Below are positions 5,975-23,415 of a DNA stretch of 23,415 bases, piece by piece. This DNA is from a virus. How positions within the stretch are numbered: position 1 is the first letter of the stretch; each line of letters starts with the position of its first letter. The DNA lies in IMG/VR virus record IMGVR_UViG_3300043568_000826, positions 1 through 23,415 of that record. One strand, written 5' to 3'. The position numbers were made by a program, and so were the translations under genes. The notes beneath the pieces were generated by a model. That model saw only the letters and a list, made by a program, of their open reading frames with translations. It had not been told where the DNA came from and did not search any database.

Positions 5975-6155
5975 AGAGTTTGTGCCTCCATAGGAATCGG
6001 GTATTAGCCTTAGCGCCGACGAAGTCCTTGACTAGTAGTCGGTTGGCTTCCTTCATTGTCTCAATCAGTTTGCCGCACCCACCGCAGGGCTTTGGTGTCC
6101 AGAACGTCTGGTTAGGCTTTGCGCTTGCGAGTTTTGCTGGCTTCTTGCCCGCCAT
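5967..6155 (-). CDS. Small zinc-binding protein
   Basis: A 62-residue basic protein starting at the ATG at 6155, chosen because AAGGAGG lies 6 nt upstream; the longer frame upstream lacks such a signal. It contains PCGGCGKL (C24, C27) and ends with RHKLCV (H58, C61), so one zinc site of the form C-x2-C ... H-x2-C is likely. The N-terminus (MAGKKPAKLASAKP) is a basic tail. It overlaps the metallopeptidase gene upstream by 44 nt and the DUF6321-like gene downstream by 8 nt. Nucleic-acid binding in packaging is plausible from the charge and zinc site, but the protein belongs to no family I can name. Confidence 0.8.
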   Translation of the reverse strand: MAGKKPAKLASAKPNQTFWTPKPCGGCGKLIETMKEANRLLVKDFVGAKANTRFLWRHKLCV

Positions 6156-6552
6156 CTTGAACCTCCTTGAAATCAGGGAGCGGCAATACCTTTGCCAAAG
6201 GAGTAGACAACGAGTCAGCCCCACGCTCTGTCTCCGTATCCCAGACGTGGTTTAGCACGTCAAAGACCATACTGCCAACCGATGTCTGAATGGTATTCAG
6301 CAACCGTTCAACGCCAGCATAGTGTACATGAATAAGTTCATGCGCAATAATACGGCGCTGATTCTCTGGTTTCTCTTTCCAGAAATCCTCCGAAAGACGA
6401 ATCGTCGCAGACCAGAGGTTCTCAGAAACCTCAATGTCTGCGTACGAATCGTCTGGCGGCAAAGACTCTGAAACCTTTACATCCCATTGCTTAAGGTTAA
6501 GCAAGGGGAGGGCTTTGGCGATATACGCCTGAGCCAGTTCCCTCTTTGTCAT
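6112..6552 (-). CDS. HExxH zinc metallopeptidase-like phage protein
   Basis: A 146-residue protein with the zinc-peptidase signature HELIH (H71, E72, H75) in the context RRIIAHELIHVHYAGVERLL. E108 in the ETERGADSL segment is a good candidate for the third ligand of a gluzincin-like site. There is no signal peptide or membrane segment, so it would act in the cytoplasm or in assembling virions. The tail is highly basic (SKTRKRKA). Small phage proteins with this motif are common among structural genes and are usually annotated only as metallopeptidase domain proteins. Substrates are unknown; cleavage of head proteins during maturation is one possibility. Start ATG 6552 follows GGGAGGGGAAT. Its 3' end overlaps the zinc-binding protein gene by 44 nt. 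Confidence 0.85.
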   Translation of the reverse strand: MTKRELAQAYIAKALPLLNLKQWDVKVSESLPPDDSYADIEVSENLWSATIRLSEDFWKEKPENQRRIIAHELIHVHYAGVERLLNTIQTSVGSMVFDVLNHVWDTETERGADSLSTPLAKVLPLPDFKEVQDGGQEASKTRKRKA

Positions 6553-7713: not shown

Positions 7714-8182
7714 CTGTAATCTCCATTCTTATTTCTCGTGCAGATCCTTCAATCACTGCAACACCGCCAAGTACTTGAGCCAGCATGATGGTTAGGTCGC
7801 GATCTGTTGACTTCTCATTCCGTCGGTCAATGATCTCCTGCGCCCGTAGCCCCTCCGCTAACGTAGGAAGAAGTATACCATCTTCCAGCATAAGGTTTAC
7901 TTGGTTTCGTACCAGCGAAGCCAAATCAACCTCAGATTTAATGGTCTTCTGCTGGCGCTGTAACACTTCGGCAGCCTCCTTGCGCTTCTTCTCAAAGGAG
8001 TCAATGAGATGCTCGCGCTTGTGGCGACCAAGAGTGATGCGGCTAATGTATCCGCCCTGCTCCTTGAGCCAATCGGCAATACGGCTGTCTGGCAGCCCCT
8101 CTTTCATCTTCTTATTAATAGACTCTACGAAGGGTGAGCGGCAAGCGTGGCAACCCGTAAGGACTGCGGCTAGTTCAGACAT
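7700..8182 (-). CDS. Zn/HTH DNA-binding protein, candidate small terminase subunit
   Basis: A 160-residue protein. C11 and C14 (GCHACRSP) precede a helix-turn-helix at about 31-59 that ends in TLGRHKREHL. H55 and H59 could complete a zinc site with the two cysteines, an arrangement I recall in phage DNA-binding proteins with a CxxC...HTH...RHxxxH layout. The C-terminal half is helical and charged (KKRKEAAEVLQRQQKTIKSE), suitable for oligomerisation. Being the DNA-binding protein upstream of terL in the packaging operon, it may be the small terminase subunit that recognises the packaging site; that is inference, since five genes separate it from terL. The ATG overlaps the preceding peptidase stop by 8 nt (ATGTCTGA). 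Confidence 0.8.
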   Translation of the reverse strand: MSELAAVLTGCHACRSPFVESINKKMKEGLPDSRIADWLKEQGGYISRITLGRHKREHLIDSFEKKRKEAAEVLQRQQKTIKSEVDLASLVRNQVNLMLEDGILLPTLAEGLRAQEIIDRRNEKSTDRDLTIMLAQVLGGVAVIEGSAREIRMEITDGEA

Positions 8183-8855
8183 TGCGGGTCACAGACCTAC
8201 GGATTTGGCTAAGCAGGGTGTTGACCTTAACTACCGCTTTCTTAGGCGCTACGGGCTTCGCAGGAGCCACTACGGGCTTCCTAGTGAAGATCAGGCAACG
8301 CTTATGTGGGGCATCTCCCTTAGAGGAGGCAATCTGCTTAAGTTCTGCCAATGTTACAGGGACGGCGTAGGACTCACTGCCCTTGCCCGACATGGTTGGG
8401 TCAGCCCACTGAGCGCCCTTCTCGTGCTGCGATGCGCAGGTCATGTGCCCGTAGGTCTTACCTGGCTTGCGAACCTGATGCTTGCGATGCCAGTCGCTCA
8501 TCTTGACTGGCGGGTAGTTCTTTGCTTGCTCTACGTTGATGCCGATGACCGCGCCAGCAGCCAGAGCCTTGAGCACATCATCCCACGACTTGGCGTAGCG
8601 GGCTGCAATGCCAGCCTTCTTAGCCCCAGCCACAAGTTGCGCAAGCGATGTAGGGTCTGGGAAGCCGTCTCGGTCATGCCGACCCACGGATTCGCCAATG
8701 ACAAGGGCTTGCTTGGTTGCAAGAGTAGAGCCAGTCAGGTGGTTGATCGCGCAGGCTAGTGTTGACCACGCGCAGTCGTCCATCCAGTTATCTTGAACTC
8801 CTGGTTTGCCAACCTCAATGGAGTCGCGCTGGGTAACAATTTTAAGTAGGTTCAT
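8175..8855 (-). CDS. Papain/C39-like cysteine peptidase, possible endolysin or virion peptidase
   Basis: A 226-residue protein from the ATG at 8855 (GAGG 6 nt upstream). Candidate catalytic residues are C28 in DDCAWSTLACAINHLTG, H137 in TYGHMTCASQHEK and D152 in AQWADPTMSG. The order Cys, His, Asp, with the Cys at the start of a hydrophobic helix, fits C39-like or papain-like peptidases. A linker PVVAPAKPVAPKK and a basic tail (LLSQIRRSVTRNV) follow the domain and could anchor it to the wall or to virion DNA. There is no signal peptide. Cysteine peptidases of this kind in phages cleave peptidoglycan cross-links (endolysin) or process virion proteins. No other clear lysis enzyme is visible among the left-hand genes. 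It lies between the fibre gene and the DNA-binding protein. Confidence 0.8.
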   Translation of the reverse strand: MNLLKIVTQRDSIEVGKPGVQDNWMDDCAWSTLACAINHLTGSTLATKQALVIGESVGRHDRDGFPDPTSLAQLVAGAKKAGIAARYAKSWDDVLKALAAGAVIGINVEQAKNYPPVKMSDWHRKHQVRKPGKTYGHMTCASQHEKGAQWADPTMSGKGSESYAVPVTLAELKQIASSKGDAPHKRCLIFTRKPVVAPAKPVAPKKAVVKVNTLLSQIRRSVTRNV

Positions 8856-8863
8856 TATTTTCC

Positions 8864-10654
8864 TCAAGTCTTAATAATAAAGTTCAACAACGTAGCCTTA
8901 GGAGTTAGTGTACCACCCGCGCTAGATGATGTTACGGATGTTGCGCCAAGAGACGTAACTCCACCAGTAACGGTGTGGGTAAGATTGGTGCTTTCTGCAC
9001 CAGAGGTTGTGGCGGCAATATCTGTGGAGTGTGTGTGCGTAGAACTTGCGACAGTTCGCTCCGTGCTACCTGTTGAGTGAAAGAACGTTGTGTTGCTGCT
9101 CGGCGCTCCAGAAGCAGTAGATGCTGGGTTAACGCTGTGTGTATGGTCGCCGTGTGTGGAAACGGCAATGGTGTCCGCGTGGGCGTGCGCAATGTTAGTC
9201 GTATGGTCGTGGGCTGTAGCGTTTGCCGTGTTTGGCGCAAACGTACCAGCGTTATTGCTGAGTGCTCCAACGGCGGCAAGACCAGCGGCAAAGCGGTCGC
9301 GCATATCTGGGAGGGTAAATGTCCCAGATCCCACCCCAAAGACTGCCGCAAGATCTGGGTATGCTGACTGGTTGTAAGTAGCCCCGTCTAGGAACAGCCA
9401 GCCAGTTGGAGAACTAGCCGTAGCCCACATAGCCACAGTACCAGTTACGATGCCTACGCCCGTTGCTCCAGTTGCCCCAGTTGCACCCTGAATCCCCTGA
9501 ATTCCCTGAATCCCTTGCGCACCAGTTGCTCCCTGTGGTCCAGTCGCCCCAGTCGGTCCAGTTGCGCCCGTCGCGCCAGTTGCGCCAGTCGGTCCAGTCG
9601 GTCCGACGGCACCAACGTTGACGATCATTAGGAGAACGGCGTGGTTATTTGAGAATCCTGTAGTACCAGTTCCTGCGCTTTCCACAAGCGTGACTGGGTA
9701 GTTGTTCCACGTGCTGTTGTAGGTTGGTGTTGAAGTTACTTCCCACTTCTGATAGTTTGCGGCGTCGCTAGTATCCTGAATAATAAGGAAGTCGCCAAGT
9801 GCTACGAGATCCAGGAATACCTCGTCGTCCTGATTGTCGCTGTCTACGTGATTGACCCTTAGCGCGGTAGCACTTACCTGCGTTGCGTTGTCCCATCCAA
9901 GGTATTGGCTATCTGGATCGCCAGATGTGTTAGTGGTCTTGGCTTTATAGTGGTAGTGAGAGGATGATCCGCCAGTTGCACCTGTTGCACCCGTGGCTCC
10001 AGTTGCACCCTGAATACCCTGAGGACCTGTTGCGCCAGTCGGACCAGTCGGACCCGTAGCACCAGTAGCGCCCGTATCGCCTGTTGCACCCTGAGGAATG
10101 CTAAAGTTGAATACCGCTGCGCTTGAGGATCCGCTGTTAGTAACTGCTGCTGAAGCACCAGGAGATAGCGTGGCGGTCGTGCCAACGTTAACACTTGCTG
10201 CTAAACCAGTCGCTCCCGTAGATCCCGTAGCGCCCGTCGCGCCCGTTGGACCAGTCGCCCCCTGAATACCTTGCACGCCCTGAGCGCCAGTGGCTCCAGT
10301 AGCACCAGTAGCACCAGTATCACCGCGTGGAATAGTAAAGTTAAGGATCGGGTCATGGGTCGTGCCACTGTTCGTGACAGAGGCAGTGCTGCCAGCAGCA
10401 CCAGTCGTAGTTGTGCCAACCGTGATCGTAGCATCGGTCGGGACTCCATTAGTCTCAAGATCAAGGACACGGTCTTCTAGATCCTGATCTTCGTTAATAG
10501 AATCCCAGATAAACTCAGGATCACCATGGCTGACTTCGGTAACAAACTCTTCATAGTATTCGTCGGGCAGCGTAAAGATTGTTCCCGCTGGACCCTTGAA
10601 ATATAGTCCATTCCATAGGATATCAATCCTCTTTGTCGCATGGAACTTAGCCAC
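8864..10654 (-). CDS. Collagen-like tail fibre with tail-collar domain
   Basis: A 596-residue fibre, probably trimeric and receptor-binding. Three Gly-X-Y collagen stretches lie at about 111-150, 188-228 and 351-399, dominated by [10 protein letters not shown]-type triplets. Before the first two are related modules ending [19 protein letters not shown] (about 92-111) and [19 protein letters not shown] (about 171-189), a repeat often seen in phage fibres. A tail-collar domain follows at about 403-460 ([35 protein letters not shown]). A His-rich region at about 481-560 ([21 protein letters not shown]) resembles metal-stabilised fibre tips such as T4 gp12. The C-terminus is [15 protein letters not shown]. 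Translation starts at GTG 10654, immediately after the preceding TAA, with AAGGAC as ribosome site. Confidence 0.95.
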
Positions 10655-20651: not shown

Positions 20652-21006
20652 TCTTACCTTAGATTCTTATCAGACAACGTTAAGATTATTTAACACTACC
20701 GATACTAAGGTTAAAGATAAAAGACGTAAGATAGTTAATGAACAACTAAAGATTAAGTCGTTCCCTCATTACGTTACCCCAGAGTTAGCCGAGTTCGTAG
20801 CCGATAACATCAATGGTGTTCGGGAACTTGGGCATAACGATCCAGAGATTATCTGGGATGACGGCTGCTGCGCCGCAGTGTACTGCGACAACTGCAAGAC
20901 ATGGGGATGGTTTACCTACAACTATGAAGCCGAGGGGGTCAGATGGTCTACCGAGGAGGAAGCAGAGTATGGAGGTAAGATCTTTGACAGTAAGTGTAAA
21001 GCCTAA
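20539..21006 (+). CDS. Zinc-binding protein with AT-rich core, upstream of dnaB
   Basis: A 155-residue protein from ATG 20539 with GAGGAG 4 nt upstream. C25, H28, C35 and C37 (MCRLHGNGTKDCRC) and C110, C111, C116 and C119 (DDGCCAAVYCDNCKTWGW) form two likely zinc sites; between them is a basic helical segment (KVKDKRRKIVNEQLKIKSFP). The region 20650-20830 has about 28-35% GC, unlike both flanks, suggesting a separate origin. It overlaps the previous gene by 113 nt and dnaB by 38 nt. Position next to the helicase suggests a replication accessory, possibly a loader or a DNA-binding factor, without direct evidence. Confidence 0.72.
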   Translation: MKLRKQLKMELARQAEDYAVQSEMCRLHGNGTKDCRCSLTLDSYQTTLRLFNTTDTKVKDKRRKIVNEQLKIKSFPHYVTPELAEFVADNINGVRELGHNDPEIIWDDGCCAAVYCDNCKTWGWFTYNYEAEGVRWSTEEEAEYGGKIFDSKCKA

Positions 21007-22285
21007 CAACACGGCAGCAGAGCGTGCCGTGCTTGGCTCAATGCTCATTGACGATAGCGTAGTAGTACCAGTTATGTCGGTGCTTAGCAGCGAAGACTTC
21101 TACGACTACGGCTATCGCTCAATCTTTGAGTCAATGGAATCACTAGTGAAGCAGCGACGTGCCGTTGATACGGTTACTGTTGCCGATGAACTAGGCAACA
21201 AGATCCTTACCATCGGTGGCAGCACGGTGCTTGGTGATCTGGTGCGGGACACCCCGACATCAGCCAACTGGGAATCATACGCTGCCCTCATTGAGGAGTC
21301 GGCAGTAAGCCGTCGTCTCATTGAGGCGGCAGGAAAGATCGCAGAGATCGGGTATCAGGGGCTGTCCTCTGACGAGGCAGTAGACAAGGCGCAGGCAGAG
21401 ATGTACCGCCTTGCCCGTACCCGTACCAACTCTACGTTCTTGGATCTGTCGCATGTCATTGGCTTGTCGTGGGATCACTATGACAAGGCGAAGGCTGGCG
21501 AGAACGACACCATCAAGTCGGGCATCATCCCAATGGACAAGTTGATCGGCGGATGGGGCAAGTCAGACCTCGTCATCGTCGCGGCTCGCCCATCGGTAGG
21601 TAAGACGGCACTGGCTGTCAACCTCGCAACCAACGCTGCAGTACGGCAGGGCAAGTCGGTTGCCATCTTCTCTCTTGAGATGTCAAGCGAGCAGATCGGC
21701 ACACGCATCCTTGCAGATGCAGCGCACGTAGACATCAGTAAGATCCGTGCGGGTACGCTTACCCAGGCGGAGGAAGAGAAACTTACCGTGGCATCGGACG
21801 CGATTGCTCGTGCGAAGATCTACGTGGACGACTCGTCTGCGCTGACCCCGCTTGAGATTCGCAGCCGTTGCCGTCGGCTCAAGCAGGAGCAAGGGCTAGA
21901 CATGGTGGTCATTGACTACATCCAGTTGCTGTCGGCTATCCGCCAGCAGAAGGATGCCAACCGTGTGATGGAGACATCGGAGATCAGCCGCAGTCTCAAG
22001 CAGATCGCACGGGAACTCAACGTCCCAGTCATTGCCTTGTCGCAACTCTCTCGCAACTCTGAGTATCGTGACAGCGGCGAGCCACGCCTCGCTGACCTAC
22101 GAGATAGTGGTAGTATTGAGCAGGATGCCGACGTGGTGATCATGCTCTGGCGACCCAAGGAACAAGGCGATGAGTTCTACGACAATGTGAATGTCAAGGT
22201 AGCGAAGCATCGCAACGGTCCGATTGGTGACCTGCAGTTGGTCTTCCGCAAGGCGACCACCTCATTCACCAGCGGAGAACAGTAG
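20969..22285 (+). CDS. dnaB: Replicative DNA helicase, DnaB family
   Basis: A 438-residue hexameric helicase that unwinds DNA ahead of the phage fork. The N-terminal domain covers about 8-150 (NTAAERAVLGSMLIDDS, DFYDYGYRSIFESM). The RecA-like domain has Walker A ARPSVGKT at about 206-213, LEMSSEQ at about 236-242, Walker B MVVIDYIQLL at about 312-321, SQLSRNSE at about 358-365 and the DnaB signature LRDSGSIEQDAD at about 377-388. Length matches the family. Start ATG 20969 has GAGGAGG 9 nt upstream; TTG 20984 is an alternative, and a longer frame to 20813 runs through the preceding gene. Its presence implies the phage supplies its own helicase; no primase or polymerase lies in this window. Confidence 0.96.
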   Translation: MEVRSLTVSVKPNNTAAERAVLGSMLIDDSVVVPVMSVLSSEDFYDYGYRSIFESMESLVKQRRAVDTVTVADELGNKILTIGGSTVLGDLVRDTPTSANWESYAALIEESAVSRRLIEAAGKIAEIGYQGLSSDEAVDKAQAEMYRLARTRTNSTFLDLSHVIGLSWDHYDKAKAGENDTIKSGIIPMDKLIGGWGKSDLVIVAARPSVGKTALAVNLATNAAVRQGKSVAIFSLEMSSEQIGTRILADAAHVDISKIRAGTLTQAEEEKLTVASDAIARAKIYVDDSSALTPLEIRSRCRRLKQEQGLDMVVIDYIQLLSAIRQQKDANRVMETSEISRSLKQIARELNVPVIALSQLSRNSEYRDSGEPRLADLRDSGSIEQDADVVIMLWRPKEQGDEFYDNVNVKVAKHRNGPIGDLQLVFRKATTSFTSGEQ

Positions 22286-22293
22286 GAGGAAAC

Positions 22294-22968
22294 ATGCGTA
22301 CAGCAGGCGAACAGTTTGACGCTGTGCTCGCAGAGAAGTCTAAGGTTGGTCGTCCGTCCAAGGCGTTCTGGCGTGGCTCCCTTATGGGGGGCTGCCTCAG
22401 GGCGCACTGGTACGACAGCACTGGCGTGAAGGGGGAACCCTTTGACCAGAAGACATTGCGTATCTTTGAGCGCGGTCATGCCGTGTCCGAGTGGATCAGT
22501 AGTGTCTTTGCAGATGCGCCAGACATCCTTGGATACGAGACGGAAGTTCCAGTGGCTATGCCGTACTATGACTTTGCGGGAAACATTGACGCAGTAGTCA
22601 CTTGGAAAGACGGCAAGCAAGAAGTATGGGAGTTCAAGTCTACTAAGGCGACAGCATTTAAGTGGCTGAAAGATTCAGCCAAGCCAGAGCACGCCACTCA
22701 AGCGGCGCTCTATGCCATTGCCCTAGAAGATGGAGACGGCATCACCCGTCCAGCCCGTGTCATTTACGTCAACGCCGACGACTTCTCCTTCAGGGAGTAC
22801 ATCGTCAGCGAAGAGGAGCGTGACCGTGCGTGGCGTACGCTGAAGGTAGCACGGCAGTTCAGGGATCAGGATCGTATGCCGCCACAACTTCCCATCCCTG
22901 ATGGCAAGACGGTAAGCACCCGATACCCCTGCTCATACTGCAGGTTCAAGACAGTGTGTCGTGGATGA
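22294..22968 (+). CDS. Cas4/RecB-like PD-(D/E)XK nuclease with Fe-S cluster cysteines
   Basis: A 224-residue nuclease with AGGAGG 4 nt before ATG 22294. Active-site elements are H62 (FERGHAVSEW), D99 (GNIDAVVTW), E113 and K115 (WEFKSTKA), and Q136 with Y140 in the QAALYAIAL helix (motif QxxxY). One N-terminal cysteine (C34, GGCLRAHWY) and three C-terminal ones (C213, C216, C222; PCSYCRFKTVC) match the 4Fe-4S ligands of Cas4 and AddB-type nucleases. No cas1 or CRISPR array is present, so this is a phage replication/recombination exonuclease rather than a CRISPR protein. It starts 8 nt after dnaB and its stop overlaps the next ATG (ATGA). Confidence 0.93.
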   Translation: MRTAGEQFDAVLAEKSKVGRPSKAFWRGSLMGGCLRAHWYDSTGVKGEPFDQKTLRIFERGHAVSEWISSVFADAPDILGYETEVPVAMPYYDFAGNIDAVVTWKDGKQEVWEFKSTKATAFKWLKDSAKPEHATQAALYAIALEDGDGITRPARVIYVNADDFSFREYIVSEEERDRAWRTLKVARQFRDQDRMPPQLPIPDGKTVSTRYPCSYCRFKTVCRG

Positions 22969-23415
22969 TCGCGCTGCTCTTGTCCGCCTTCTTGCTGCTT
23001 ACACCACACGGTGTGAGAACAGAGGGGACGGCGACATGGTACGGGAATACCAATCCTCACAGTCAGAAGTTCTGCTACGGAGGCTACAAGAATACCTGCA
23101 ATCCCTACCTGAAGGGGGAGAAGGTATGGTACGCCGCAGTAGGATCATGGAAATGGGGGAATAAACCATATAAGATCATGGTATGTAGGGCGGACAACAC
23201 TACCCGTTGTGTAGTTGTAGTAGTCCGCGACTACTGCCTTGGTGCGGAAGCCGCCCTTCAGGGAAGGGGGAACCGCGCAGTAGACCTGTCACCTAAAGCA
23301 TTCTTAACATTGGCTCCGCTGAGAATCGGTGTAGTCCATGTTATAATCAAAGAGGTTAACTGGAATACTGAGGTAGGAATAGTATTAGTTAATAATAATA
23401 AATGGAGGAACCAAT
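22965..23415 (+). CDS. Secreted double-psi beta-barrel (RlpA/expansin-like) protein, 3' end outside window
   Basis: The frame from ATG 22965 is open for 150 codons to the right edge. Residues 1-20 (MIALLLSAFLLLTPHGVRTE) look like a signal peptide. The mature part begins TATWYGN, and later has VVVVVRDYC and RAVDLSPKAFLTLAPLRIG, in order and spacing resembling RlpA-like domains (WYG ... V.V.D ... R.xDLS..AF..LA). D89 and D107 occupy the conserved Asp positions. Five cysteines (37, 45, 74, 82, 91) could form disulfides outside the cell. RlpA proteins cut or bind peptidoglycan and expansins loosen walls, so envelope attack, lysis or superinfection control are candidates. The ATG overlaps the nuclease stop and lacks a strong ribosome site. 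GGAGGAACCA at the very edge looks like the ribosome site of another gene. Confidence 0.78.
   Translation, partial: MIALLLSAFLLLTPHGVRTEGTATWYGNTNPHSQKFCYGGYKNTCNPYLKGEKVWYAAVGSWKWGNKPYKIMVCRADNTTRCVVVVVRDYCLGAEAALQGRGNRAVDLSPKAFLTLAPLRIGVVHVIIKEVNWNTEVGIVLVNNNKWRNQ

Follow-up and report, generated by a model that had tools for sequence, protein, structure and literature searches.

A predicted double-psi beta-barrel protein encoded within the replication and recombination block of an uncultured phage

Gene order at the locus and distribution of the barrel gene

The window, by which the whole analysed stretch of 23,415 nucleotides is meant, belongs to an uncultured, freshwater-type phage and ends with a gene for a small protein of the predicted double-psi beta-barrel (DPBB) fold. 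The features discussed below are:

8175-8849, minus strand: C39-like cysteine peptidase, probable lysin (conserved DDC / GH / AxPT pattern)
20969-22285, plus strand: replicative helicase of DnaB type, encoded upstream in this run of genes (Pfam DnaB_C, 8.2e-93)
22294-22968, plus strand: Cas4-like PD-(D/E)XK nuclease (Pfam PDDEXK_1, 2.2e-13; phrog_1706, phrog_1990)
22965-23414, plus strand: DPBB protein gene, 150 aa (open reading frame, Pfam DPBB_1, AlphaFold2, PDB matches, purifying selection)
22965-23000, plus strand: N-terminal hydrophobic stretch MIALLLSAFLLL, a probable signal for export that has no Lys/Arg
23229-23231, plus strand: Asp89 of the RDxC motif, invariant in 44/44 relatives and aligned with the NDRG Asp of E. 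coli RlpA
23283-23285, plus strand: Asp107 of the VDLSPKAF motif, invariant in 44/44 relatives, by motif the equivalent of EXLX1 Asp82
23414-23415, plus strand: first two bases of the gene for an Erf-like ssDNA annealing protein, present whole in contig L002

The window stops one base into the stop codon of the DPBB gene, which is otherwise entire. In sister contigs the frame is closed by a TGA directly after ...NQ, so that nothing but the stop codon is lost from the window. The gene is identical in one sister contig (L002) and 84-93% identical in the others, with a dN/dS of 0.12-0.19 for this frame between them; it is a real gene under purifying selection. Its translation contains ATWYG, VVVVVRDYC and RAVDLSPKAF together with five cysteines (residues 37, 45, 74, 82 and 91), as a sequence-only reading of the window had described for the last gene. 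The same reading had named the overlapping frame 22961-23164 as the one which might be translated instead. This frame was rejected as a gene and is regarded as non-coding because its dN/dS is 0.77-2.0 and extra stops interrupt it in a relative (L004).

The start of the DPBB gene lies within the stop codon of the Cas4-like gene, giving the 4-bp ATGA overlap (GATGATC) which had been pointed out earlier, and the match to PDDEXK_1 agrees with the nuclease identity then proposed. The DPBB stop codon lies in turn within the start of the Erf-like gene in a second 4-bp ATGA overlap (CCAATGAAG); the complete Erf-like gene of L002 matches Pfam ERF (2.2e-12) and phrog_155 (PHROG Erf, 7e-27). The DPBB gene is thus the central member of a recombination trio whose genes overlap closely and which follows the DnaB gene.

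A profile scan found the DPBB family in at least 165 IMG/VR contigs, from which 80 loci were retained for context mapping, and in all 80 the gene is placed inside the replication/recombination block, so the earlier claim that it lies next to replication genes holds for every mapped relative. The immediate neighbours vary by lineage: Cas4-like and Erf genes, DnaB and a C5-methylase, an HJR-like resolvase, or RusA. An NTGA overlap with an upstream open reading frame of at least 50 codons occurs in 35 of 61 distinct DPBB sequences, which means that the gene often stays translationally coupled to whichever early gene precedes it. The overlap begins with CTG, always as CTGA, in 12 of these 35 (for example L033, L034, L050 and L081), which suggests CTG start codons for the DPBB gene in 12 distinct sequences. 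Scans for promoters and terminators gave no excess over shuffled sequence, therefore the operon limits and the timing rest on gene order, and it is from gene content that we infer early expression. In one 37-kb contig (G015; L090, L195) two DPBB copies are found, at about 6102-6512 and 34150-34605, one of which follows an HJR-like resolvase gene.

A virion role was also considered. The DPBB fold occurs in phage tails, as in a cyanophage baseplate (8kea), yet the window gene is located outside the structural block and there is no sign of such a role in this lineage, in agreement with the sequence-only reading, which had disfavoured it. A tape-measure-like protein containing a DPBB domain (L019, 3862-5646) is a further instance of the same fold being used in tails.

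This branch of barrels has been seen so far in viruses only, the profile scan of bacterial genome contigs having returned no DPBB relative. Among GenBank phages no close member was found; there is only a 37% identical RlpA-like barrel in Moraxella phages that are unrelated to the window phage, where the protein has a standard signal and its gene adjoins a helicase gene or lies near an integrase gene. In Moraxella phages Mcat17 and Mcat8 (L098, 5995-6324; L099, 3968-4297) this barrel is annotated as hypothetical and is devoid of the RlpA active-site His. PHROGs has no family for the window protein, with some relatives matching phrog_7930 ('lipoprotein precursor') weakly, and plasmids gave nothing beyond a 34% match in Streptantibioticus. 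As to the host, a relative of the terminase was absent from bacterial genome contigs, no terminase match was obtained among GenBank phages, and neither a tRNA nor an RNA family was found.

Fold, nearest relatives and N-terminus

The window protein matches Pfam DPBB_1 with an E-value of 2.4e-6 and 28.1 bits, which is 0.7 under the curated cut-off of 28.8, and 13 of 13 close relatives match this family. The AlphaFold2 model built with 44 diverse relatives has a mean pLDDT of 75 and 88-93 in the barrel core, the confidence being low in residues 28-51 and in the first nine residues; it superseded a model from only 13 sequences (pLDDT 35). Structural matches obtained with Foldseek and VIA-align were PA4485 (Z 10.2), cerato-platanin (9.9), kiwellin (9.6), expansins (8.8-9.7) and the Streptomyces papain inhibitor, SPI (8.8). 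The model and these solved DPBB structures, with Z of 8-10, uphold the double-psi barrel which the sequence-only reading had proposed to check by structure: as modelled, the protein is a double-psi beta-barrel of the DPBB superfamily (PF03330-type). Fold likeness alone does not establish function.

Three NCBIfam families are relevant to the question of which barrel this is. Papain_Inhib is the only one matched by every one of the 44 relatives (best 1.5e-10), followed by expansin EXLX1 with 35/44 and rlpA (TIGR00413), weakly, with 10/44 (best 0.0034). The window protein itself scores 18.1 bits against Papain_Inhib (NF041659), where the equivalog cut-off is 150. When the family profile was compared with PDB sequences, the best matches were SPI (5ntb, 2e-8) and a Clavibacter expansin (5e-5).

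The protein had previously been called RlpA/expansin-like, and the two halves of this label fared differently. The septal ring lytic transglycosylase RlpA shares with it the DPBB fold and an NDRG-type Asp; its active-site residues in P. aeruginosa are E120/H131/D157. After alignment of E. coli RlpA to the 44 relatives, the position of the His (TAAH) is occupied by Val in 41 and by Met in 3, and the position of the Glu (TASGE) is Glu in none of them. The RlpA architecture comprises a lipobox and a C-terminal SPOR domain (PMC6895207). No lipobox was found in the 44 sequences and no SPOR domain either, DPBB_1 being the sole domain found and the chain ending after the barrel, and the TIGR00413 profile gave no match in the window though the E. 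coli control was positive. Membership in RlpA was rejected because lipobox, SPOR domain and active-site His and Glu are all missing from this close DPBB family. The expansin half is upheld in part, in that the expansin-type pair of Asp residues is invariant and expansins are among the structural matches.

The nearest characterised relatives are SPI and domain 1 (D1) of bacterial expansins, and the protein looks like SPI or like an expansin D1 standing on its own. With EXLX1 D1 (PDB 4jcw, 3d30, 9ms5) it has in common the barrel (Z about 9), the conserved Thr of ATWYG and the groove Asp of the DLS motif; EXLX1 binds peptidoglycan tightly and its Asp82 is essential (PMC5072189; for Asp82 see also PMC5444802). 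It differs in its extra cysteines and in the lack of the second, carbohydrate-binding domain (D2), the 150-aa chain being finished after the barrel. SPI is likewise a small single-domain secreted DPBB protein and shares the RDxCxxC and DLSxAAFxxLAPLxxGVV motifs, but the window protein is far below the equivalog cut-off, phage-borne and co-translated with recombination genes. Cerato-platanin and kiwellin are secreted, cysteine-containing DPBB proteins of similar fold, but both are eukaryotic and only 11-20% identical in sequence. Proteins of the same kind are deposited in UniProt from uncultured Caudovirales as 'RlpA-like, double-psi beta-barrel' (for example A0A6J5MTZ7, 48% identity); they were found by fold search in BFVD and are known by annotation only, no description of their gene context or function having been found in the searched literature. 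Literature searches for RlpA or DPBB early genes of phages returned nothing relevant.

Of the export signal claimed by the sequence-only reading, the hydrophobic part is real. A hydrophobic N-terminus is present in nearly all of the 42 relatives whose N-terminus was usable (one shortened by start choice), with a mean best 10-residue Kyte-Doolittle value of 2.6, but the usual Lys/Arg before the hydrophobic core is found in 1 of 42 only, and Asp/Glu in 5 of 42. It may be described as an unusual, atypical Sec signal. Cysteines 45, 74, 82 and 91 are conserved in at least 42 of 44 relatives and favour an oxidising compartment; as five is an odd number, one cysteine of the window protein would be unpaired. 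Among distant members, which were found via the lysin search, one has a textbook lipobox (L209, ...LFAACTPL) and another a Lys-containing signal (L207). The region around the lipoprotein-signal member (L209, 1339-1869) looks structural, not early. It is likely, judging from these sequence features, that the DPBB protein is exported.

Probable lysis genes and possible functions

The protein encoded at 8175-8849 carries a C39/papain-type Cys-His pattern and matches no Pfam or PHROG family, therefore its C39-like assignment is by motif. In relatives the peptidase is followed by a holin-like transmembrane segment or fused to one, for which reason it is probably a lysin. Together with 13 related loci it forms a C39-like family which is probably a common, unannotated lysin of these phages. 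A Holin_LLH gene with a clear match is present in a sister contig, away from the DPBB gene. At 8864-10654 (minus strand) the window also encodes a large protein with collagen-like GxT repeats, which is probably a tail fibre. The peptidase was found in 20 of 25 DPBB-bearing contigs, including 13/13 of those of at least 35 kb, and conversely DPBB was found in 11 of 20 contigs selected by the peptidase, including 8/8 of those of at least 40 kb; taken together these contigs have at least three terminase types.

Built upon the gene, its fold (predicted model and database matches), its conservation, its position and its translational overlaps, the reading preferred here, at a probability of roughly 0.45, is that the DPBB protein would be an early exported, probably non-lytic envelope-binding protein, by analogy with EXLX1 and cerato-platanin. 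A small barrel of the expansin-D1/SPI type would be co-translated with the Cas4-like nuclease encoded before it and the Erf-like annealing protein encoded after it, cross the cytoplasmic membrane early in infection, fold with disulphides, and attach through the groove of Asp89 and Asp107 to some component of the host envelope. If expansins are a guide, and likewise cerato-platanin, a single-domain barrel which loosens walls non-catalytically (PMC5444802), the action of the phage protein would more probably be binding, loosening or masking than lysis. The envelope of the infected cell might then be altered or protected while the genome is replicated, presumably to the advantage of the phage. 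A lytic role of the DPBB protein is not supported.

The co-occurrence with the peptidase means that another reading, in which the barrel is an exported SPI-like protease inhibitor and which the sequence-only reading had left out of account, merits attention. Its target could be an envelope protease of the host or a papain-like phage lysin, own or a competitor's, and its purpose the timing of lysis or the shielding of the infected cell against lysin that neighbouring cells release. Such a function would fit the universal match to Papain_Inhib among the 44 relatives, the top rank of SPI among PDB sequences with its two common motifs, and a DPBB-peptidase pairing which is complete in the longest contigs and spans at least three terminase types. 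The distance between 18.1 and 150 bits speaks against it, however, expansins match likewise, and the C39 assignment is motif-based. The co-occurrence itself may only mean a common lineage, gene pool, host or host wall, not physical partnership. On balance the inhibitor is considered doubtful, and its narrow form, where the early exported barrel inhibits the C39-like lysin of the same phage as an immunity-type partner, the genes travelling together across terminases, is very improbable.

Somewhat less credible than an inhibitor in general is the possibility that the barrel weakens peptidoglycan as an accessory enzyme with muralytic activity, of a lytic-transglycosylase-like or GH45/GH75-like kind. 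Pfam describes DPBB_1 as lytic transglycolase and both acidic groove residues are retained, which recalls the two acidic residues that PMC9485262 discusses in DPBB glycosidases, but equivalents of the RlpA His and Glu are missing in 44/44, the gene is situated among recombination genes while the probable lysis genes are elsewhere, and constant early cleavage of the wall would presumably harm the phage. It is still less probable that the protein is not exported at all, its N-terminus anchoring the barrel in the inner membrane so that it faces the cytoplasm and serves the recombination/replication complex. The missing Lys/Arg and the tight coupling to the Cas4-like and Erf-like genes would suit such an arrangement; against this, the cysteines are conserved, most of the related barrels whose structures have been solved are secreted, a lipobox or a standard signal occurs in distant members, and the small RlpA-like barrel of the unrelated Moraxella phages, encoded near a helicase or integrase gene, has a standard signal.

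Wall-active barrels of phages are usually treated as parts of the virion or of the lysis system. In the present case the fold is a known one, the gene is real and conserved, and the setting is both unusual and conserved. In phages whose terminases differ, this branch of barrels, known so far from viruses only, keeps its place among the replication/recombination genes, and this placement predicts an early envelope function, which may be remodelling, protection against superinfection or inhibition of a lysin.
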